Below are positions 73 through 11,262 of a stretch of DNA of 47,732 nt, one piece after another. The notes under the pieces were generated by a model that was given only the letters and a program-made list of their open reading frames with translations, did no database searches and had not been told where the DNA came from. The translations under genes were made by a program, and so were the position numbers. The first letter of the stretch is position 1. Every line of letters begins with the position of its first letter. The stretch comes from Methyloprofundus sp. (GTDB taxonomy: Bacteria; Pseudomonadota; Gammaproteobacteria; Methylococcales; Methylomonadaceae): NCBI GenBank assembly GCA_014859465.1, contig JACUUF010000015.1, forward strand, positions 1 through 47,732. The letters run 5' to 3'.

Positions 73-900
73 ATGCCACAAAGTCAAATTATGCCGGGGT
101 TTCGCCCGGCTTTGGGTTTTACCCTGTTTTACCTAGCACTGATCGTGTTAATTCCGCTCAGCGCGTTAATCTTAAAGTCATGGGAGTTGAGCTTAGATCA
201 GTACTGGGACATATTTAGCAGCCAACGCGTACAAGCCTCGTTTAGGGTTAGCTTTGTTTCCGCGCTGATTGCCGCGAGTTTTGCCGCACTGTTTGGCTTT
301 ATTATTGCTTGGACTTTGGTGCGCTACCCTTTTCCTGGGAAACGTTTTTTTGATGCCTTAATCGATTTACCGTTTGCTTTACCGACCGCCGTTGCCGGTA
401 TTGTGCTGGCCGCGCTTTATGAGCCGCGTGGCTGGATTGGTGGAATTATTATCAACACCATAGGGGTGCAAGTGGCTTATAAGCCCATAGGTATCGTGTT
501 TGCACTGATTTTTATCGGCCTGCCTTTTGTTGTGCGTACCGTTGAACCCGTGTTGCAAGAATTTGATACCGCAATAGAAGAAGCGGCAGCGAGTCTTGGC
601 GCCAATCGCTTGCAAACCTTTATAAGAATTATTTTGCCGAATATTTTACCGGCCATGCTGACAGGTTTCGCGTTGGCCTTTGCTCGTGGCGTTGGTGAAT
701 ATGGCTCCGTTATCTTTATTGCCGGCAATATGCCCTATATCTCGGAAATTGTCCCGCTGCTGATTATCACTAAACTCGAGCAATACGACTATGCAGGCGC
801 GACTGCTATTGGCTTGACCATGCTTATTATCTCGTTTTTATTATTACTTATCATCAATCTCCTGCAATGGTGGATTCGCCGCCGTAACGGACAACTTTAA
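73..900 (+). CDS. cysT: Sulfate/thiosulfate ABC transporter permease CysT (CysU)
   Basis: One of the two inner-membrane permeases of the CysTWA-Sbp sulfate/thiosulfate importer. The 275-residue protein has about six hydrophobic segments and the EAA loop that contacts the ATPase (EEAAASLG, residues 169-176, followed by a conserved ILPNI). Length matches the family (about 275). It heads a run of same-strand genes and is followed 11 bp later by cysW. The start has only a weak ribosome site. No periplasmic sulfate-binding protein gene is visible, so sbp/cysP probably lies upstream of the window or elsewhere. The CysT assignment over other molybdate/sulfate permeases rests on family resemblance and the cysW-cysA-cysB context. 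Confidence 0.95.
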
Positions 901-911
901 GAGGCACTATC

Positions 912-1787
912 ATGAGCATACACGCTGCAACCCTTAGCGTTGGTCCAGAGCCTGTTGCTTTAGCCGATGCCCGCTGGGTACGCTATACGCTAGTTGGTTT
1001 AACTTTGGCCATTATTACGCTATTTTTAATTTTGCCGCTGGCAACCGTTTTAATTGAAGCCTTTAGCAAAGGCTGGCGTGTTTATAGTGCCAGTATTACC
1101 CATCCTGATACCTTATCTGCGATTGGTTTAACCTTACTCACTGCAGCCATTTGCGTACCGCTGACCACTTTTTTTGGTGTCTGTGCTGCGTGGGCGGTCG
1201 CGCGGTTTGATTTTCGGGGCAAGAGTCTGCTGCTGACGCTGATTGATTTACCTTTTTCAGTGTCACCGGTCATTGCTGGTTTGATTTATGTGCTGATGTT
1301 CGGTGCTCAGGGCTGGTTTGGTCCATTACTTGAAGCCTATGATATAAAAATCGTTTTTGCTATCCCAGGCATTATTTTAGCCACTTTATTTGTCACCTTT
1401 CCTTTTGTGGCACGCGAATTGATTCCCATGATGCAGGAAATGGGTCACGAAGAAGAGGAGGCCGCCTTATCATTGGGGGCGAGTGGTTGGCAAATGTTCT
1501 TTAAAATTACCTTGCCGAATATTAAATGGGGTTTATTGTATGGCGTCTTACTGTGTAATGCTCGGGCGATGGGCGAATTTGGTGCCGTGTCGGTGGTTTC
1601 AGGACATATTCGCGGACTGACCAATACCCTGCCACTGCATGTAGAAATTACTTATAACGAATATGACTTTGTCGGCGCCTTCGCCAGTGCTTCGTTATTA
1701 GCCGCCTTAGCGGTCGTTACGCTGGTGGTGAAAAGCTATTTAGAATGGCGTCAATATCAAGAACGGCAAGCAGCAAACCGCGCATAA
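912..1787 (+). CDS. cysW: Sulfate ABC transporter permease CysW
   Basis: Second membrane permease of the sulfate importer, forming the translocation channel with CysT. The 291-residue protein has about six hydrophobic segments and the EAA loop starting at E180 ([10 protein letters not shown], then KITLPNI). The motif [20 protein letters not shown] near residues 217-236 is typical of CysW. It lies 11 bp after cysT, with a GAGG ribosome site just after the cysT stop, and 25 bp before the cysA start, so the three are almost certainly one transcript. Confidence 0.95.
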
Positions 1788-1812
1788 TTCCCCTTATTTG
1801 AAGAGAAATAGC

Positions 1813-2856
1813 ATGAGTATTAACCTAAAAAATATAAGCAAGCATTTTGGCAGCTTTAGTGCCTTAGATAATATTAGCCTAGATATTCCCGAGGGCGAAC
1901 TGGTCGCCTTACTCGGTCCTTCAGGCTGTGGCAAAACCACCTTATTGCGTATCATCGCCGGTTTAGAGCAGGCTGATCAAGGTCAAGTTTTTTTAAACAA
2001 CGATGATGTCACGCATAAATCCGTTAAAAACCGGCAAATCGGCTTTGTATTTCAGCATTACGCTTTATTCCGGCACATGACTGTGTTTGATAATGTTGCC
2101 TTCGGTCTGCGCGTTAAAGATAGAAAACAGCGGCCCACAGAAACGCAAATCAAAGAAAAAGTCCATGCGCTACTCGATTTAGTACAACTCGATTGGCTTG
2201 CTGAGCGCTTCCCAGATCAACTCTCCGGCGGCCAGCGTCAGCGTATCGCTTTAGCTCGAGCCTTAGCCGTCGAGCCTTCGGTTTTATTGCTGGATAAACC
2301 TTTTGGCGCACTCGATGCCAGTGTGCGTAAAGATTTACGCCTTTGGCTGCGGCATTTGCATCATGAGCTCCATGTCACCAGCATCTTCGTCACCCACGAT
2401 CAAGAAGAGGCAATGGAGGTCGCCAGCCAGATTGTCGTCTTAAATAAAGGGATTATTGAACAAAAAGGCTCACCCAGCGAGATTTACGACTATCCGAGCA
2501 GTGATTTTGTCTCTAGGTTTATCGGCCATACCAATATCTTCCATGTTGAACAAGAAGAAACTCACTGGCTACAAAGCACCGGTATTATTGATGGTCAAGC
2601 GCAAGGCAGCAGCGCCCATGTACGTCCACACGATATTCGCATTGCAAAAGCAAGCAAGCCTGAAGACGCTCATGTGTATCTAAAAGACTGGCAGCATTTA
2701 GGTTCCACTATCCGCTTGGAATTAGCTAGACATAATGCGCCAGCGAATAGCACACCGATTTATGTGGAAATGCTCAATGAGCAATTTAGCCAATTGGATT
2801 TAAAAAAAGAAGACCCCGTTGCTTTGCGTGTTAAACAAGCGCATTGGTTTAGCTAG
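1813..2856 (+). CDS. cysA: Sulfate ABC transporter ATP-binding protein CysA, Walker B glutamate replaced by lysine
   Basis: ATPase that powers sulfate import through CysTW. I chose the ATG at 1813 (347 residues, [13 protein letters not shown]), which matches the usual CysA N-terminus, over a TTG five codons upstream. Visible motifs are Walker [10 protein letters not shown], a Q-loop FVFQHYALF, the signature LSGGQRQR, the D-loop GALD and the switch histidine in [12 protein letters not shown]. The odd feature is the Walker B segment, which reads [11 protein letters not shown]: the catalytic glutamate is lysine (K162, codon AAA at 2296-2298) where CysA proteins have LLLDEPFGALD. That is one G-to-A change from GAA. 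All else looks intact, so this is either a recent inactivating mutation, a sequencing error or a real variant. Confidence 0.94.
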
Positions 2857-2857
2857 C

Positions 2858-3757
2858 ATGAATTTAAATCAAATAGAATTGCTGCGTGTGCTGCAAGACA
2901 CCAATTTAAATCTGTCAAAAGCGGCGGACAAAATGCACATTGTGCAGTCCGCTGTGAGTCGGCAATTGCAACTTTTTGAGGCTGAATTAGGCTCGCCTTT
3001 ATTTGAAAGGCAGGGTAAAAAACTAATCGGCATGACCACCTTAGGCAGGCGCATCATGGAAGAGGTGAGTGTCATTCACTGTGCCAAAACTAATATTCAA
3101 CAGATAGCCGCCGATTATCTGGACAGTCATCACGGTATTCTGCACCTTGCGACTACGCATACCCAGGCCAAATATTTTTTGCCGATACCGATTCAACGGT
3201 TTAGAAAAAAATATCCGGGGGTCAAAATCTATATGCTGCAATCGTCACCGGAACAACTGATTGATCAATTGCACTCGCGTAAAGCCGATATTGCTATTTG
3301 TACTGAGAAAGTCGATCAAGAGACGGATCTTATTATTGAGTTCTGTTATCAATGGCATCATGCATTAGTAGTACCGCAGCAGCATCCGTTAAGCACTGGA
3401 GAGGTGTCCCTTGAACGTCTGGCCGCTTTTTCTATACTAACGTATAGTCCTGGTTTTACCGGCCGATCAAATATTGAGGCTGCATTTAAACAGGCAGGTA
3501 TTGAGCTGGATATTACCCTAGCTGCTGCTGATACCGATGTGATAAAAACCTATGTTCGCTTGGGTATGGGGGTCGGGCTTATTGCGCGAATAGCCTATGA
3601 TCCAATCATAGATAAGGATTTAGTTGTCCGGGATTTATCTCACCTGATTCCCAGTTCAAGAACCAAAATAGCCCATTTGAAACACAATTATTTGCCCTTA
3701 TATAGCCAACATTTTATTGATGAATTATTAATTGCAGCCAAAGAAATTGAATGTTGA
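2858..3757 (+). CDS. cysB: LysR-type regulator of sulfur assimilation, CysB-like
   Basis: Transcriptional activator of the LysR family, CysB/Cbl branch. The 300-residue protein has an N-terminal winged helix-turn-helix (about residues 1-60, NLSKAADKMHIVQSAVSRQL) and a C-terminal effector domain with the CysB signature ATTHTQAKYFLP near residue 100, a loop that in CysB binds sulfate or N-acetylserine. The ATG at 2858 begins one base after the cysA stop, so the regulator is translationally coupled to the transporter. A longer frame starting inside cysA is possible but would add 13 unlikely residues. In enterobacteria CysB activates sulfate-uptake genes when O/N-acetylserine accumulates. CysB rather than Cbl is my best reading. 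Confidence 0.9.
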   Translation: MNLNQIELLRVLQDTNLNLSKAADKMHIVQSAVSRQLQLFEAELGSPLFERQGKKLIGMTTLGRRIMEEVSVIHCAKTNIQQIAADYLDSHHGILHLATTHTQAKYFLPIPIQRFRKKYPGVKIYMLQSSPEQLIDQLHSRKADIAICTEKVDQETDLIIEFCYQWHHALVVPQQHPLSTGEVSLERLAAFSILTYSPGFTGRSNIEAAFKQAGIELDITLAAADTDVIKTYVRLGMGVGLIARIAYDPIIDKDLVVRDLSHLIPSSRTKIAHLKHNYLPLYSQHFIDELLIAAKEIEC

Positions 3758-3942: not shown

Positions 3943-5445
3943 TTAATAGTTCCATTGTAGCTGAGTACGGATCATATCGCCCTCAGCCTGACCAGAACGG
4001 CTGCTGGAAATTTCTTTTCTGGACATGTTGGCGTAGGCGAAGGTCAGTTCCAGTTCTTTCATTATCTGCCATTCCACCCCAACTTCAAGCTCATCGGTCT
4101 CGGCTCTTGGCGCATTAGTTGAGGATTTCCAGCCGCCACGGAATGTTTGCCATTTCACGTAGGGCATCCAGTCTCCGTAAAAATCCTGAATACGATACAT
4201 GGCCTGTACATAACCACCATGGGATTTTTTCTCTTCGGTTTGCTGGTTGGCAACATCCCATTCAGGGCCTTTACCCCAACTCCATTCCGTTTGGAAACCG
4301 AACGGTTGCGGATATTTGATGACATGGAAAGCAATGCGATTCTCGCCAAATTGTTTAGCCGTGGTGCCGCCTCCGCTTTTTTCCACGTTGATGCGGTTGT
4401 GTATGCCGGAAATACCTGCTTCGATCACCTGTCCTTTAAATAGGTCACCCAGCGCGTCCATTTCAAACGGGTAGGTGGCCATACCAGCATACATGAATTC
4501 ATCGTTCTTCTCGGTTCGATTCACGCCTTGGCCATTGAACACACCAAAGCCGAGCATGCCGTAATTGCCGAACAGTTTTTGCTTGTCGTCTTTCAGACGT
4601 TGCCATATCTCTTGAACATGGCTTGGGCTGTAGTAACCGATGACACCTAAATCGCGCTCACTGGGCACGGCAGCGTTGACTACGTCGGCCCGATCTAGTG
4701 CTAGGCGGTTTTGCGATGATTGCAGGTTTTCCCAGCCGAATGGCACCTTCGATTGGCCAACACGTAGGCGAAATTCATGCGCCTTGTCGAAGAAAACATC
4801 CACATAAGCGTCACGCAGTTGGACGAAATTTTCGCGACGTTCGTTGTTACTTTGATTGCTGATGCCGCTGGCAAAATCCGGTTGCAGATAAAAAGAGATA
4901 TAATCGTTCAGATCGCCTTGAAATACCAAGCGAACACGTCTGAGTGAGAAGCTGGTGTTATCGCCGATGGAGCGGTCATGCACCGAACGTAGCCTTGATT
5001 CTCCAGATTCAGCAGTACGGTCGCCAGATAGAATTTGGTTATAGCGTACTTGGGTGTAACCGCGCACTCGAATTTTGTCATACCACTTTTTCTCGCCGTC
5101 CGCCTTGGCTTGTTTTTGCTCCGATTCCTCGTGTGTTTTTTCTTGCGCCTCGACTTTATCGTCTAACTGGCTCAGCTTGTTATCCAGCTCTTTCTCCTTG
5201 GCTGCCAGACGTTGTTCTATTTCTGCTAGTTGCGCAGTGTTCGGTGCATCTTCGCTTTCCTTGCGGAAGCGCCCTAGTTTGATGCGATTTTCACCGGGTG
5301 TGGTGTAAACCTGTCCGCTGTTCTGATCAACATAAAGTTCAAGCGTCATTGTCTCATCTGCAAGCACTGGAGCCGTTAAGATTGTCGCTAGGAGGGTTAC
5401 AGGGAATAGCCGAGTGACTCCCTTTATCTTATGATATGCTTTCAT
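3943..5445 (-). CDS. Phosphate-selective porin (OprO/OprP family)
   Basis: Outer-membrane anion channel. The 500-residue protein begins with a signal peptide (MKAYHKIKGVTRLFPVTLLATILTAPVLA, cleaved before DETM), then a charged predicted coiled coil at about residues 68-115 rich in E, K and Q, as in trimeric porins of this family. A beta-barrel domain from about 130 to the end follows, with RVRGYTQVRYNQ at the barrel start and a terminal aromatic residue (QWNY). The start ATG is preceded by a Pho box, so regulation by phosphate starvation is likely. Its position beside the sulfate operon could suggest a sulfate channel, but the Pho box argues for phosphate or polyphosphate. It is convergent with cysB. 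Confidence 0.85.
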   Translation of the reverse strand: MKAYHKIKGVTRLFPVTLLATILTAPVLADETMTLELYVDQNSGQVYTTPGENRIKLGRFRKESEDAPNTAQLAEIEQRLAAKEKELDNKLSQLDDKVEAQEKTHEESEQKQAKADGEKKWYDKIRVRGYTQVRYNQILSGDRTAESGESRLRSVHDRSIGDNTSFSLRRVRLVFQGDLNDYISFYLQPDFASGISNQSNNERRENFVQLRDAYVDVFFDKAHEFRLRVGQSKVPFGWENLQSSQNRLALDRADVVNAAVPSERDLGVIGYYSPSHVQEIWQRLKDDKQKLFGNYGMLGFGVFNGQGVNRTEKNDEFMYAGMATYPFEMDALGDLFKGQVIEAGISGIHNRINVEKSGGGTTAKQFGENRIAFHVIKYPQPFGFQTEWSWGKGPEWDVANQQTEEKKSHGGYVQAMYRIQDFYGDWMPYVKWQTFRGGWKSSTNAPRAETDELEVGVEWQIMKELELTFAYANMSRKEISSSRSGQAEGDMIRTQLQWNY

Positions 5446-5640: not shown

Positions 5641-5714
5641 GATTTCAAGGGTTCAAGAACCCGCTTAGATCGAACTTTTCAGTCAACTGTAGGGCGCGGC
5701 TTTAGACGGGAAGC
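5641..5714 (+). repeat. Dispersed repeat, copy A
   Basis: About 74 bp sharing long identical blocks with the reverse complement of 10040-10113: TTTCAAGGGTTC near the left end, and CTGTAGGGCGCGGCTTTAGA at the right end. The middle is less conserved. A fragment TGTAGGGCGTGGCT recurs at 24412. No open frame is present. It looks like a REP- or MITE-type intergenic repeat. Confidence 0.6.
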
Positions 5715-5725
5715 TAAGATCGTTG

Positions 5726-5762
5726 ATACTGCTTGACAGCCTAAAGCCGATAGCAGTATGCT
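5726..5762 (+). promoter_or_regulatory. Promoter with overlapping inverted repeat, upstream of the serine acetyltransferase gene
   Basis: A perfect -35 TTGACA (5733-5738), an 18-bp spacer and a -10 TATGCT (5757-5762) form a good sigma70 promoter. A perfect 8-bp inverted repeat, ATACTGCT (5726-5733) and AGCAGTAT (5752-5759), touches both boxes and could be an operator. Predicted transcription would begin near 5769, about 130 bp before the 5899 start codon. Confidence 0.6.
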
Positions 5763-5793
5763 ACTTGGCAACACAAGCTGACTGGACAACCGG

Positions 5794-5834
5794 AAGCCGA
5801 CGTGCCTTTACCAAAAGGCCGTCGGCTTTTTTTT
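5794..5834 (+). terminator. Rho-independent terminator or attenuator in the leader of the encapsulin cassette
   Basis: A two-tier hairpin: AAGCCGACG pairs with CGTCGGCTT, and inside it GCCTTT pairs with AAAGGC around an ACCA loop. The stem is followed by eight T residues (5827-5834). It lies about 25 bases after the predicted start of the promoter at 5733-5762 and ahead of the acetyltransferase gene, so it may act as an attenuator or end a short RNA. Confidence 0.8.
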
Positions 5835-5898: not shown

Positions 5899-6912
5899 AT
5901 GAACGACAACAACCAGATTTTGCCCGCCGGGAACACCTCAGTCTCGGCTCATGACCAAGCTGAGCAATCATCTAACAAAGCGAAAGCGTTTGGCTTAAAA
6001 GACTGCGCTCAGTCTTTGTCCGAACATTCGCTCGGTATAGAAACCATCGTCGCTCGCTTGCGGGAAATTCGCTTGCAATCGCTTGAAATCCGTCAACGCC
6101 GCAACTTGCCGCCCAAATTGCCGTCAAGAAAAACCTTGTCGGCCATTATCGACGGACTGAGCGCGGCATTATTTCCAAACCGTTTAGGCCTACCTGACCT
6201 GAACGACGAGGGTATCGATTGCTATGTTGGACATACACTCGACACCACGCTGCGCGAGCTGAACAAACAAATCTGCCGTGAACTGCAATTCATTTCCCGT
6301 GATAACGGCTACAACGCAAACTTGCAGCAGCAAGCGGAAACCATCACGCGAGCGTTCGCAAGCCAATTACCTGCGGTTCGTAGTTTGCTCGATACCGACA
6401 TTCAGGCGGCTTATGAAGGCGACCCCGCTGCCGGCAGCATCGATGAAGTTTTAGTATGCTACCCCGGCATCACGGCGATGATTAATCACCGCATCGCTCA
6501 TATTCTTTACCGCCTTGGCGTGCCCTTGCTTGCTCGAATGGTTGCGGAGATCGCGCATTCGGCAACCGGTATCGATATTCACCCTGGCGCCCAGATCGGT
6601 GAGGGCTTTTTTATCGATCACGGGACGGGTGTGGTGATTGGTGAGACCGCGATCATCGGTCAGCATGTGCGTTTATACCAAGCTGTGACGCTCGGTGCGA
6701 AACGCTTTGCAAAAAATGCCGACGGCACTCTGGTCAAAGGCAATGAACGGCATCCCATTGTCGAAGACTACGTGGTCATCTATGCGGGTGCAACGATACT
6801 CGGCAGAATTACGATAGGCCGGGGATCGACGATTGGCGGTAACGTCTGGCTGACTGAGAGCGTAGCGCCGGACAGCATGATCACCCAGCACCGTATGCAG
6901 CATGAAACTTAA
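5899..6912 (+). CDS. Serine O-acetyltransferase (EpsC/CysE type) of the encapsulin cassette
   Basis: Makes O-acetylserine from serine and acetyl-CoA, the committed step of cysteine synthesis. I chose the ATG at 5899 (337 residues) because AGAAGG lies nine bases upstream; in-frame ATG 5866 and TTG 5845 are weaker. An N-terminal extension (residues 1-50, polar) precedes a helical SAT domain (about 60-220) and a C-terminal left-handed beta-helix of hexapeptide repeats with the catalytic GIDIHPGAQIG and FIDHGTGVVIGETA motifs. This longer SAT form is known to accompany family 2A encapsulins. The gene ends 69 bp before the shell gene on the same strand. Codon use is visibly richer in G+C than in the housekeeping genes further right. 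Confidence 0.92.
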   Translation: MNDNNQILPAGNTSVSAHDQAEQSSNKAKAFGLKDCAQSLSEHSLGIETIVARLREIRLQSLEIRQRRNLPPKLPSRKTLSAIIDGLSAALFPNRLGLPDLNDEGIDCYVGHTLDTTLRELNKQICRELQFISRDNGYNANLQQQAETITRAFASQLPAVRSLLDTDIQAAYEGDPAAGSIDEVLVCYPGITAMINHRIAHILYRLGVPLLARMVAEIAHSATGIDIHPGAQIGEGFFIDHGTGVVIGETAIIGQHVRLYQAVTLGAKRFAKNADGTLVKGNERHPIVEDYVVIYAGATILGRITIGRGSTIGGNVWLTESVAPDSMITQHRMQHET

Positions 6913-6981
6913 AGTAAAAAAATAGTCCCAATTTCAATCCGAAAAACACAATTGTAATTTACCCAACCCAGGAGAATAACC

Positions 6982-7899
6982 ATGGCAGATATCCATGAAG
7001 CCCATACCGCACTCGGCGACGTAGCCGCCCGTACCCTGTCGAATGCGACCAAAACCGTCCCTATGATGGGAGCGATCACACCGCGTTGGCTCGTTCATTT
7101 GTTGCCTTGGGTGTCGGTCGAAGCCGGTATCTACCGTGTTAACAAGGTCAAGAGCGAAACCAGTATCTCGGTCGATTGCTCCAACCTTGACGAAAGAGTG
7201 TTGCCACAGACCTATGTCGATTATGAGGAATGGGGCCGTGAATACCGCTTAAACGCGGTCAATACGGTACTCGACGTTCACACCCGTGTTGCTGATTTAT
7301 ACAGCAGCCCGCATAATCAAATCCAAGAACAATTAAGACTGACCATTGAAACCATCAAAGAAAGGCAGGAAAGTGAATTAATCAACAACGCCGAATACGG
7401 CCTGCTGAACAATGTTGCCCCCTCGCAAAAGGTGCAAACCCGTAATGGCGCACCAACCCCTGACGACCTTGATGAATTGATCGCAAAAGTGTGGAAAGAA
7501 CCTGCGTTTTTCCTCGCGCATCCGCGCGCAATCGCCGCCTTTGGCCGGGAAGCGACCCGCCGTGGTACACCGCCGCCTACCTTAAGTTTATTCGGCTCGC
7601 AATTTATCACTTGGCGCGGTATTCCACTGATTCCAACGGATAAACTCAAAGTCACCAATGAAACCACCAACATCCTGCTGCTGCGCACCGGTGAAAGTCG
7701 CCAGGGTGTCGTCGGTTTGTATCAACCCAACCTGACTGACGAGCTGAGCATGGGTCTGTCGGTACGCTTTATGGGCATCAATCATAAAGCCATCGCTTCA
7801 TACCTGGTATCACTTTATTGTTCGCTGGCCGTTTTGACTGAAGACGCCATCGGCGTACTTGAAAATGTTGCCGTGGACCAATACTATGACTACAAGTAA
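6982..7899 (+). CDS. Family 2A encapsulin shell protein (SrpI-like)
   Basis: Self-assembling HK97-fold protein that forms a closed protein nanocompartment in the cytoplasm. The 305-residue length and sequence (MADIHEAHTALGDVAARTLSNATKT at the start, then PRWLVHLLPWVSVEAGIYRVN, later HPRAIAAFGREATRRG and the C-terminal GVLENVAVDQYYDYK) match the SrpI/family 2A shell proteins, which carry an N-terminal arm unlike family 1. A good AGGAGA ribosome site lies eight bases before the ATG. It sits between the acetyltransferase and a cysteine desulfurase whose N-terminal domain is the expected cargo tag; that desulfurase starts 14 bases before this gene ends, so shell and cargo are translationally coupled. 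There is no cyclic-nucleotide-binding domain, which places it in 2A, not 2B. Confidence 0.93.
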   Translation: MADIHEAHTALGDVAARTLSNATKTVPMMGAITPRWLVHLLPWVSVEAGIYRVNKVKSETSISVDCSNLDERVLPQTYVDYEEWGREYRLNAVNTVLDVHTRVADLYSSPHNQIQEQLRLTIETIKERQESELINNAEYGLLNNVAPSQKVQTRNGAPTPDDLDELIAKVWKEPAFFLAHPRAIAAFGREATRRGTPPPTLSLFGSQFITWRGIPLIPTDKLKVTNETTNILLLRTGESRQGVVGLYQPNLTDELSMGLSVRFMGINHKAIASYLVSLYCSLAVLTEDAIGVLENVAVDQYYDYK

Positions 7900-9673
7900 T
7901 TCAACACACATCGATCCAAGCGCTTTAGGCCTACCTGATGAATGCCAGTTAACGCAGTGGGCTAACGCGCTATTTGCTGCCTCGCCGGTTACGGAGGCTG
8001 ATTTCGGCGTACCGGGTTCGGCCGCCACGCATAATCCGGTTCAGCCGATTCTGGCAGGGGAACAAGCGATTCTTGGCGGTCATTCCTTGCAATCGAGCGG
8101 TTTGCCGCTGGAAGCCGATCTCAAGGCACAACTTGGCGATTATTTACAACGTTCCGCCAAAGCGCCCGCCAGTTCAGAAACGCAAATTTTGGACTTCGGC
8201 ATTCCAGGCTCGGCGGCGACCCACGATTCGATTCCGGCTGCCGAGCAATCGTTAATCGGTCGGCAGCCGCTTCAGCCCAGCGGCTTGCCTTTGCAAGCAG
8301 ATCTAAAAGCTTTACTGGCGCAACATCTGACGGCTCCGGCAAATACGCTGGCAGCGCCACAGTCGGTGGGCGGTTATTATTTTCTCAATGAAGTAGCGCA
8401 ATTGGGTCGTGTGGCTCAAGAAGCAGGATTAGGTTCGTCTCATCCGCCGTTCGACGTTCATGCTTTTCGCCGTGATTTTCCGATATTGCGCGAATTAGTT
8501 AATGGCCGGCTTTTGGTATGGTTTGACAATGCCGCGACAACACAAAAGCCACAGGTCGTGATCGACCGGTTGAGCGAGTTTTACACTCACGAAAACTCGA
8601 ACATCCACCGCGCAGCCCATGAATTGGCGGCGCGTGCCACCGATGCCTATGAAAACGCTCGCGAGATCGTCAGACGCTTTCTCAATGCCTCATCGCCGAA
8701 TGAGATCGTGTTTGTGCGCGGCTCCACCGAAGCTATCAATTTGGTGGCACAGAGTTACGGCAGACAACATATCGGCGCAGGTGATGAAATCGTTATCAGT
8801 TGGTTGGAACATCACGCCAACATCGTCCCGTGGCAACAGCTTTGTGCCGAGACCGGCGCGGTGCTGCGCGTGATTCCGGTCGATGACAGCGGTCAGGTCA
8901 TTTTGAGCGAGTATCAGAAATTGCTAAGTGCCAAAACCAAACTGGTTTCCTTTACGCACGTTTCCAACGCTTTGGGTACGATTACTCCTGCTGAGGAAAT
9001 GATCGCGTTGGCGCAACAGGTCGGCGCAAAGGTGTTATTGGATGCGGCGCAATCGGTATCGCATCTCGGTGTTGACGTTCAGCAACTAAATTGCGATTGG
9101 CTGGTCTTTTCCGGCCACAAAATATTCGGTCCTACCGGTATCGGCGTGTTATATGGCAAGGAGGAATTGCTCAATTCAATGGCGCCGTGGCAAGGCGGCG
9201 GCAACATGATCGAAGATGTCACGTTTGAAAACATCGTTTACCAAGCCGCACCCGCGCGTTTCGAAGCCGGTACTGGCAATATCGCCGATGCGGTCGGTCT
9301 TGGCGCTGCGCTTGAATATTTGCAAAGCATCGGCATCGAAAATGTTGCCCGTTACGAGCACGAGCTGCTCGAATACGCGACTGAACAGCTCAAGTGTATC
9401 CAAGGATTACGCCCGATCGGCACCGCGCAAAACAAAACCAGCGTGTTGTCGTTCGTGTTAAAAGGGCACAGTACTGCAGACGTCGGCAAAGCACTCAGTG
9501 AGAACGGCATCGCAGTTCGTTCTGGGCATCACTGTGCGCAACCGATCTTGCGTCGTTTTGGTCTGGAAAGCACGGTACGTCCGTCGCTAGCCTTTTACAA
9601 CACTTTTGCCGAGGTTGATCTGCTTGCTGCTACTTTGCGTCAGCTGCAAAGCGGTAAAACTTTCTTTGGCTAA
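7886..9673 (+). CDS. Cysteine desulfurase (SufS-like) encapsulin cargo with repeated N-terminal loading domain
   Basis: PLP enzyme that removes sulfur from cysteine, giving alanine and an enzyme persulfide. The ATG at 7886 (595 residues) overlaps the shell gene by 14 bases. Residues 180-595 are a type II (SufS/CsdA) desulfurase with HH in ISWLEHHANIVPW, the PLP lysine K412 in FSGHKIFGPTG and the catalytic cysteine C550 in RSGHHCAQP. The first 180 residues are low-complexity and contain two copies of a module, DFG-V/I-PGSAATH then GLPL-E/Q-ADLKA-Q/L-L, starting near D39 and D103, after a LPDECQLTQWANALF segment. N-terminal extensions with such motifs are the known encapsulation tag of family 2A cargo. 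It probably loads sulfur into the shell as persulfide or elemental sulfur. Confidence 0.95.
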   Translation: MTTSNSTHIDPSALGLPDECQLTQWANALFAASPVTEADFGVPGSAATHNPVQPILAGEQAILGGHSLQSSGLPLEADLKAQLGDYLQRSAKAPASSETQILDFGIPGSAATHDSIPAAEQSLIGRQPLQPSGLPLQADLKALLAQHLTAPANTLAAPQSVGGYYFLNEVAQLGRVAQEAGLGSSHPPFDVHAFRRDFPILRELVNGRLLVWFDNAATTQKPQVVIDRLSEFYTHENSNIHRAAHELAARATDAYENAREIVRRFLNASSPNEIVFVRGSTEAINLVAQSYGRQHIGAGDEIVISWLEHHANIVPWQQLCAETGAVLRVIPVDDSGQVILSEYQKLLSAKTKLVSFTHVSNALGTITPAEEMIALAQQVGAKVLLDAAQSVSHLGVDVQQLNCDWLVFSGHKIFGPTGIGVLYGKEELLNSMAPWQGGGNMIEDVTFENIVYQAAPARFEAGTGNIADAVGLGAALEYLQSIGIENVARYEHELLEYATEQLKCIQGLRPIGTAQNKTSVLSFVLKGHSTADVGKALSENGIAVRSGHHCAQPILRRFGLESTVRPSLAFYNTFAEVDLLAATLRQLQSGKTFFG

Positions 9674-10039: not shown

Positions 10040-10113
10040 GCTTTCCCTCTAAAGCCGCGCCCTACAGCCTTTAGAAAAAGTCCGATTAAGTAAGTTCGTG
10101 AACCCTTGAAATT
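10040..10113 (-). repeat. Dispersed repeat, copy B (inverted relative to 5641-5714)
   Basis: Contains TCTAAAGCCGCGCCCTACAG and GAACCCTTGAAAT, which are the reverse complement of the conserved ends of copy A, in matching order and spacing. Copies A and B therefore bracket the serine acetyltransferase-encapsulin-desulfurase cassette in opposite orientations. Confidence 0.6.
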
Positions 10114-10392: not shown

Positions 10393-11262
10393 ATGCCATT
10401 GCAACAATTGGTTGAATATTTTAATGATCGCTTGGAATGGGAGCATCATACCCGTTTGCGGCCTTTTCTATTAAAAGAGGGGTTGGTGCAGGGTTTATTC
10501 GGCCCCATTCGAACCGGCACCCATTTGGAGGCGGTCAGGGAAACACAGAATTCTGCACGAATTCTAGGCTATGCGGCGAGTCTGCAAGTGGCGACTAACG
10601 AAATTCCACATCTGCAAAATCATGAGCTTGAATTGATTCTGTCACTGCCCTCGCAGCCGGCCATTAATCCCGATTCCATCATCAATTTCGACCGCTTGGC
10701 GCGCACCGTGCACATGCTCAATTTTCTACCGCATGCGCATGAACCGGTTTTTTTGCAATTGGAAGTTGATCCCCGACATGTTCTTGGTGTTAAAAAAGAT
10801 CACGGTGCTTATTTTCAGGAAGTCATCACTAAATGCGGTCTGGAAACGGGCAATATCGTGATCGCCTTGCGGCTCAGCTCGGATTATGCGCAATATTACC
10901 AAGCGTTAATCGCCGGACTAGAAAACTACCGTAAACGTGGCTACCGTCTGACCTTACAGTTCGATTATCCGGTCTTGAGCAGCGGTTCGGCACAGGCTTT
11001 AATCAGCGCGCTGTCTCCTGACTGGGTTGAGGTCTCTGCCAAGGGGTTCAGCGCAACAAAAGACTCGGTATTGCTGCAAAAATTGCAACAGACGCAACGG
11101 CTGGCGGCTTCCGCTGGGGCGCAATCTTTGTTGTCGGACATTAATCATCAAGAGCTCGATAGCTTAGCCTACGCTAGCGGGTTTGAAGCGGTGGCAGGCA
11201 GCTATTACCAAGCAAACGTCTCAGCCTGGACGGATGACGTGGCTCGTTTGGCGCAGGCCTGA
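10393..11262 (+). CDS. Degenerate EAL-domain protein, probably catalytically inactive
   Basis: A 289-residue protein whose second half follows the course of an EAL (cyclic-di-GMP phosphodiesterase) domain: FLQLEVDP, then RKRGYRLTLQFDYPVLSSGSAQALISALSPDWVEVS, then GFEAVAGSYYQ at the end. The residues needed for metal binding and catalysis are missing: there is no EAL triad, DDFG is replaced by QFDYP, and the usual EGVE is replaced by LSDINHQE. It is therefore likely a binding or scaffold protein, not an enzyme. A start with a good AAGGAG site lies at 10393. It is 49 bp ahead of the start of a hydrolase gene's longer frame and probably shares its transcript. Why it sits beside the sulfur cassette is unknown. 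Confidence 0.65.
   Translation: MPLQQLVEYFNDRLEWEHHTRLRPFLLKEGLVQGLFGPIRTGTHLEAVRETQNSARILGYAASLQVATNEIPHLQNHELELILSLPSQPAINPDSIINFDRLARTVHMLNFLPHAHEPVFLQLEVDPRHVLGVKKDHGAYFQEVITKCGLETGNIVIALRLSSDYAQYYQALIAGLENYRKRGYRLTLQFDYPVLSSGSAQALISALSPDWVEVSAKGFSATKDSVLLQKLQQTQRLAASAGAQSLLSDINHQELDSLAYASGFEAVAGSYYQANVSAWTDDVARLAQA

Follow-up and report, generated by a model that had tools for sequence, protein, structure and literature searches.

A conserved hairpin-terminator leader, a candidate regulatory RNA, upstream of a family 2A encapsulin operon in Methyloprofundus

What decides when a bacterium builds a protein compartment for sulfur, and is that decision tied to the rest of sulfate assimilation? 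The question is raised by a stretch of 47,732 nucleotides from Methyloprofundus sp. (GenBank assembly GCA_014859465.1, contig JACUUF010000015.1, positions 1 to 47,732 of the forward strand), here called the window. In it, genes for a serine O-acetyltransferase (SAT), a family 2A encapsulin shell and a cysteine desulfurase cargo lie in a row. An earlier, sequence-only reading drew attention to these genes and overlooked two elements on either side of them, a short leader upstream and a gene for an EAL-like protein downstream. The genes themselves are known biology. What appears to be new is the conserved leader, a candidate regulatory RNA for sulfur assimilation that would also govern a protein organelle. 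Our preferred reading, to which we give a probability of roughly 60%, is that the encapsulin operon is under the control of a sulfur-linked conditional terminator.

A conserved leader with two predicted structures

A scan with the shell as query saw 592 relatives, the best 80 loci of which were kept for neighbourhood counts; these loci share kinship and are not independent of one another. Comparison of the 450 bases 5' of the SAT gene with other loci revealed one short conserved stretch, at positions 5777-5834. Most copies read GCUGA-CCGG-ACAA-CCGG-A-AGCC and run into an intrinsic terminator whose 5' arm starts with the same AGCC. In the window, the 5' hairpin occupies positions 5777-5797 on the plus strand (GCU / GA / CUGG, CCGG in most copies, - ACAA - CCGG / A / AGC) and was derived from two alignments. 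The terminator, predicted by folding, spans 5795-5834 on the same strand, so that it begins with the bases in which the hairpin ends. A promoter-like site (TTGACA-18-TATGCT, 10 of 12 matches; 5733-5762, plus strand) predicts a transcription start a few bases 5' of the leader. Across the whole region such sites do not exceed chance (nine found, 7.4 expected); directly upstream of the 71 aligned leaders, the best site scores at least 9 in 39 cases, compared with 6.5% of shuffled upstream sequences.

The pairing of both structures is highly conserved. In the first alignment, of 49 distinct copies, the 5' hairpin is paired in 99.7% of alignment cells. Both sides have changed in 10 cells, compared with 1.1 in shuffled alignments, and sliding the partners by one to three columns reduces pairing to 57% or less. 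A second alignment of 41 copies, 13 of them from places outside the first, gives 98.3%. The terminator pairs hold in 99.0% of cells, with changes on both sides in five of eight pairs; hairpin core and terminator together are paired in 99.3%, with 36 double-changed cells against 7.0 in shuffles. These compensatory changes support the hairpin and the terminator as alternative predicted structures. At the base that they share, two copies (L012 and L041:3676, one from a gammaproteobacterium and one from a betaproteobacterium) carry a three-way change, in which A21 becomes G, its hairpin partner U5 becomes C and its terminator partner U61 becomes C. Two more copies have G21 with U5, a G-U pair. Such three-way changes, though few, are what would be expected of two mutually exclusive structures. 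A T run follows 50 of 52 core matches from 81 sources, and the mean predicted folding energy is -20.2 kcal/mol for the terminator and -7.5 kcal/mol for the 5' hairpin.

The leader does not correspond to a catalogued RNA: no Rfam family matched the window at its gathering score, and the best match near the leader at a relaxed threshold reached 24 of 55 bits. Among the papers listed in searches of the open-licence literature on sulfur and encapsulin gene regulation, encapsulin neighbours, methanotrophs and storage, none concerned it.

Some sequences beside the leader deserve mention in their own right. GUUAGC (or GUUGGC/GUUAGU) stands just 5' of the leader in L034, L042, L055, L069, L073-L077 and L079 and could pair with GCUGAC, possibly as a lineage-specific third state. 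Six base pairs can form in this way in 10 of 71 elements (0.6 expected) and at least five in 14 (4.7 expected); eight of these ten are betaproteobacterial by title and two are titled 'uncultured proteobacterium'. This upstream hairpin thus looks confined to one lineage, and we discarded it as a general third state. By eye, four other loci (L036, L040, L044 and L047) carry AGTA(C/A)TTTA, partly as the palindrome TAAAGTACTTTA, about 20 bases 5' of the leader, where it may be a -10 box or an operator.

The genes that follow the leader

At E < 1e-7 the leader model finds the element in 48 of the 80 loci and in the window; 44 of these 49 sources had contributed to the model and five had not. A covariance model of the leader (R1) was also run over 151 genomes of the family (G000-G150) with a cut-off of E 0.01. 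It matched 97 places in 60 genomes, 64 of them strong (at least 40 bits). Strong places were classed by the positions of shell genes, counting as shell-linked those up to 2.5 kb upstream on the same strand, and behind 45 of the 64 a shell gene follows in this way at a distance of 96-2456 bases. The remaining 19 precede a sigma-54 activator (seven), cysJI (four) or cysK or cysK-cysE (five, one of them an 83-residue fragment), or lie at contig ends (three: L160 and two others with 173 and 192 bases left). The cysJ and cysK assignments are curated matches; the DNA behind 17 of the 19 was retrieved, and the other two, both at contig ends, were placed by coordinates only. Every readable strong place, 61 of 61, precedes sulfur genes or an SfnR-like activator, and no other gene class occurs. 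A strong element stands before the shell in 42 of the 71 shell-bearing genomes of the family, and three of the 80 genomes without a shell have a strong element at all.

Further copies occur within single genomes and outside the family. Methylobacter tundripaludum SV96 has one leader before cysK-SAT-shell-desulfurase and another before cysJI. A genome from another family of the same order (G348) has one before cysK-SAT-shell-desulfurase and one before a FadL-type channel, and the betaproteobacterium Methylobacillus arboreus has a second copy before a FadL-type outer-membrane channel. These two channel-linked leaders, L041:3676-3731 (minus strand) in Methylobacillus and L201:361-416 (plus strand) in the other family, stand before channels of the OMPP1/FadL/TodX type. 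Titled loci led to 36 genomes, and a leader is present in 24 of them at E 1e-4; at that threshold none was found in four titled Nitrosomonas, Crenothrix sp. D3, Methylovulum psychrotolerans or Methylobacter sp. BlB1. The present genome has no second copy at E 0.01. At L017:7881 (plus strand), about 2.1 kb upstream of the shell, there is a decayed-looking leader with a near-intact core and a broken terminator.

The activator resembles SfnR in having a sigma-54 interaction domain near its N-terminus, a weak match to a Fis-type helix-turn-helix and no receiver domain that we could find. SfnR of Pseudomonas putida is a CysB-regulated sigma-54 activator for the use of dimethyl sulfone, according to titles cited in PMC8234197. 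The gene of the methanotrophs differs in having the leader in front of it, and its relation to SfnR is one of likeness.

A conditional terminator and its rivals

Attenuators in which an antiterminator competes with a terminator are well known, among them the RNA antiterminator (RAT) sites of BglG/LicT proteins and small terminator riboswitches. The leader is built like these, a small 5' hairpin and the 5' arm of a terminator having bases in common; it differs from them in its own sequence, in the sulfur-assimilation gene set that follows it and in its host lineages. On the conditional-terminator reading, transcription would start a few bases 5' of GCUGAC. Given how much more stable the terminator is predicted to be than the 5' hairpin, the default state would be off, with transcription yielding no more than a short leader. 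During sulfur shortage a protein or metabolite would stabilise the hairpin GCU-GA-CCGG-ACAA-CCGG-A-AGC, removing AGC from the base of the terminator and allowing polymerase to read through. SAT would then supply O-acetylserine, cysteine would be made elsewhere, and the packaged desulfurase would take the sulfur from cysteine, most likely to be held in the shell as reported for family 2A. Our first guess for the stabiliser, at about even odds, is a protein of the LicT kind; a metabolite is the second and more doubtful guess. In this respect, a self-contained RNA is slightly favoured by the fact that the form of the leader is kept in a genome without other copies.

Several observations weigh against this reading. 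The 5' hairpin is short and nearly invariant, with double changes in only three of its seven pairs, and the sequences share ancestry. One copy (L033) has C5 with A21, unpaired, and five cells are unpaired in the wider set. The R1 model includes the U tract, so that conservation of the terminator among its matches is partly built in. In 29 of the 71 shell-bearing genomes no strong element stands before the shell (two of these have a weak one), and in the class as a whole the leader is rare, occurring in three of 369 genomes, the present one included, one of them weakly. Among the 33 weaker places, five were examined: behind two a shell follows at a distance of about 2.1 kb, behind one cysJI follows, and two, of 29 and 34 bits and both in the genus of the window, have no reference genes behind them. 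A 39-bit place from the class scan likewise shows no reference gene in the 443 bases to the contig end. The sulfur role of the activator follows from its likeness to SfnR and not from a curated model. Finally, the CCGG-N4-CCGG core is also a palindrome in DNA.

One rival concerns the last step only. Instead of storing sulfur, the compartment might deliver it to one partner or moderate free cysteine. Channelling to a rhodanese is suggested in PMC8346489, and encapsulation raises the desulfurase rate about sevenfold in Synechococcus elongatus (PMC8049743). Set against this, sulfur storage is what PMC12407261 cites for desulfurase encapsulins; the sequence-only reading had taken these shells as known for it. 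The present data do not separate delivery from storage, and we consider delivery possible though somewhat unlikely.

A bolder version of the conditional terminator would make the leader the founding member of a new class of very small sulfur-sensing RNAs. A ~22-base aptamer would bind a sulfur-assimilation metabolite directly, O-acetylserine or a thiol for instance. In bacteria that oxidise methane or methanol it would command a regulon of cysJI, cysK-cysE-encapsulin-desulfurase, FadL channels and the SfnR-like activator, and it would travel with the cassette between genera. That such an aptamer could act free of a partner is suggested by the survival of the leader in the present genome, where no second copy was found. 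We regard this version as unlikely.

The palindromic core leads to a different explanation, in which it serves as a DNA operator that a transcription factor binds and the terminator behind it is the ordinary one of an upstream transcript, with no RNA switching. Several of the changes in the core are symmetric and a CysB-family gene lies nearby, as an operator would suggest. Yet the core includes some G-U pairs that preserve pairing in the RNA and break the symmetry of the DNA, and the outer helix shares its bases with the terminator. Together with the T run behind nearly all cores and the promoter-like site upstream of more than half of the aligned leaders, this makes an operator distinctly unlikely.

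The element has a promoter-like site, a structure and a terminator all its own, and could in principle be a stand-alone RNA of ~60 bases acting in trans. A weak whole-length match to the enterobacterial small RNA STnc240 (RF02074) points the same way: the two are alike in length and have a similar CCGACG terminator stem, but the match scores 24 bits against a cut-off of 55 and the agreement is mostly in the terminator. A trans-acting RNA would also leave unexplained that all readable strong places precede the same few gene classes, on their strand, and that several genomes carry copies before different operons, which suits a cis element; we consider it improbable. A translated leader peptide sensing cysteine by classical attenuation can be rejected, since, although the core is readable as L-T-G-Q-P-E-A in one frame and an ATG lies directly 5' in seven of 71 leaders, there is no conserved start codon (34 ATGs at scattered positions in the 71) and that frame has no cysteine codon.

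The cassette, its neighbourhood and its origin

The operon behind the leader is an ordinary member of the published family 2A type. All three frames are open on the plus strand. The SAT, of the EpsC type (5899-6912), is the first gene 3' of the leader; it passes NF041874 with 161.8 bits against a cut-off of 150 and falls below that of the cysE model (170.6 against 210.65). The shell gene (6982-7899) encodes 305 residues, which match the NCBIfam model encap_f2a (NF041162) with 528 bits against a cut-off of 380 and the Pfam SrpI-like family PF19307 with 356 bits. Its best solved relatives are SrpI (6x8m; 486 bits, residues 8-305) and 8t6r (474 bits), which we take to be a shell from Acinetobacter, and these matches to solved shells settle the fold. 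The protein consists of a single Pfam family along its 305 residues and has no cyclic-nucleotide-binding domain, a trait of family 2B. The 2B model scores 433 bits (528 for 2A), above its own cut-off of 400, with its best match over the shell part of that model (208-449 of 450).

From the cargo ATG to the shell stop, the two genes share 14 bases. The cargo (7886-9673, 595 residues) matches NF041166, 'family 2A encapsulin nanocompartment cargo protein cysteine desulfurase', with 873 bits against a cut-off of 800. It has an extra N-terminal region of about 190 residues, followed by a SufS-type domain (SufS-family match from residue 193), and it is such a desulfurase next to the shell that marks family 2A. 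The sequence-only reading is thus borne out in its description of the three genes, their order, overlap and family, and comparison of the shell with known family 2A shells, which it had proposed on the basis of structure, ends at the sequence level in alignment to 6x8m and 8t6r and a pass of NF041162. Across 76 cargo proteins the motif LPx1-3(E/D)(L/I) is enriched in the N-terminal region (mean 0.93, against 0.03 in shuffled sequences). In the window this region (7886-8440) contains, by eye, two near-copies of a ~50-residue block, DFG(V/I)PGSAATH ... SGLPL.ADLKA.L. FG(V/I)PG was dropped as a general cargo repeat: two copies occur in one of 75 scored cargo proteins, that of the window, and the others have none or one.

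The system of SrpI and its desulfurase CyD in Synechococcus elongatus, and that of 8t6r, resemble the present one over nearly the whole length of the shell and in cargo family, extra N-terminal region, sulfur-gene neighbourhood and SAT accessory. The window differs in its conserved hairpin-terminator leader and in the two near-copies of the cargo block; cysK, present in the cluster of 24 of the 80 loci, where it lies upstream, is not in that of the window. PMC8346489 names SAT and rhodanese as the accessory genes most enriched in 2A desulfurase operons; Nichols et al. (PMC8049743) report that the system co-occurs with sulfur genes and is induced by sulfate starvation in S. elongatus, and that knockouts there show no growth defect. 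The suggestion of something little-noted is therefore not upheld for the system as such, as the system, its SAT accessory and its induction were already published.

Upstream of the cassette, and immediately inside the start of the contig, lie cysT, cysW, cysA and a CysB-family regulator (73-3757, plus strand), with a porin gene on the opposite strand (3943-5445) between them and the cassette. CysT (385 bits, cut-off 246), CysW (407, cut-off 329) and the sulfate ATPase family (381, cut-off 343) pass their models; the regulator matches CysB-family models but stays below the cut-off of each (best 305 of 402). The upstream genes that had been reported are thus present, the regulator at family level only. 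Within the window, no sulfate-binding protein was seen by eye in the lists of open reading frames, references for cysK, cysJ and cysI from relatives gave no match, and ten further frames that were scanned belong to no sulfur-assimilation family. The claim of a complete route from sulfate to stored sulfur does not hold for the window, where cysteine synthase and sulfite reductase were not found; of the earlier interpretation, the cassette, its family and the recurrent link to cysTWA stand. A single match to the methane/ammonia monooxygenase A family in the genome (356 bits against 318) fits a methanotroph.

Among the 80 loci, SAT lies up to 2.5 kb upstream of the shell in 65 and the desulfurase downstream in 78. 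cysTWA is present within the DNA covered in 45, and in 26 of the 37 loci with at least 9 kb on both sides. It stands upstream on the same strand in 15 and on the opposite strand in 14, and downstream in 14 and two, respectively. Such varied positions and strands argue that the link is kept through rearrangement; chance would presumably seldom place the one cysTWA cluster of a ~4 Mb genome less than 10 kb from the shell. Two family 2A shells in one genome were also observed, about 12 kb apart on one contig (L021/L028) and, in G055, far apart with identical scores (C1:1890765 and C1:3131627).

Downstream of the cassette, a gene at 10393-11262 (plus strand) encodes a degenerate EAL-domain-like protein of 289 residues, which recurs beside the cassette or cysTWA. 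The protein of the window matches nothing in Pfam or the PDB. Relatives occur in 29 of the 80 loci at E 1e-10, two overlapping loci sharing one gene. In ten loci (six titled Nitrosomonas, four unnamed proteobacteria) the gene shares its strand with the shell and ends 87-124 bases 5' of it; cysT is its neighbour in four betaproteobacterial methylotrophs. Of the five relatives that were scanned, four exceed the Pfam EAL cut-off and one, from a Methylomonas, falls below it, and the EAL signature is worn in methanotroph copies. The protein, sulfur-linked and probably non-catalytic, offers a lead for the missing partner of the leader.

Several features bear on the origin of this region. The shell occurs in one of 18 genomes of the genus, namely the present one. 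In the other 17 the EAL-like gene has no match at E 0.001, and matches to CysW are at most 39% identical and were taken as other transporters. The first 11.9 kb have a G + C content of 45-51%, and the rest of the window 41%. The assembly is 7% contaminated; contamination of this contig from another genus was considered and rejected, as RecG, at 35-37 kb on the same contig, is 75-93% identical to 13 of the 17 congeners (92-93% to the two nearest) and at most 67% identical to other genera among the matches listed, which places the contig in the genus. The remaining four congeners gave weaker matches only. In a tree of shell, SAT and desulfurase domain from 67 loci, the window groups with L002 (support 0.999), whose genome has a RecG only 63% identical. 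We read this as one acquired sulfur block that carried the leader with it; loss in the 17 congeners is an alternative that the same data would allow. A search for a clean empty site did not yield one: the glgP genes of two congeners (94 and 81% identical) lie without the left-hand genes of the window beside them, but the right-hand neighbour is likewise absent from the 1.7 and 3.5 kb available on that side. An imperfect inverted repeat of 73 nucleotides brackets leader and cassette, its left arm at 5642-5714 being 75% complementary to its right arm at 10040-10112 (blastn E 9e-11).

If the leader acts as proposed, a shared control element would tie sulfur-handling encapsulins to the rest of sulfate assimilation. 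It would provide a direct handle on when such compartments are made, and would add a short candidate regulatory RNA to the biology of methanotrophs, organisms of climatic and industrial interest.

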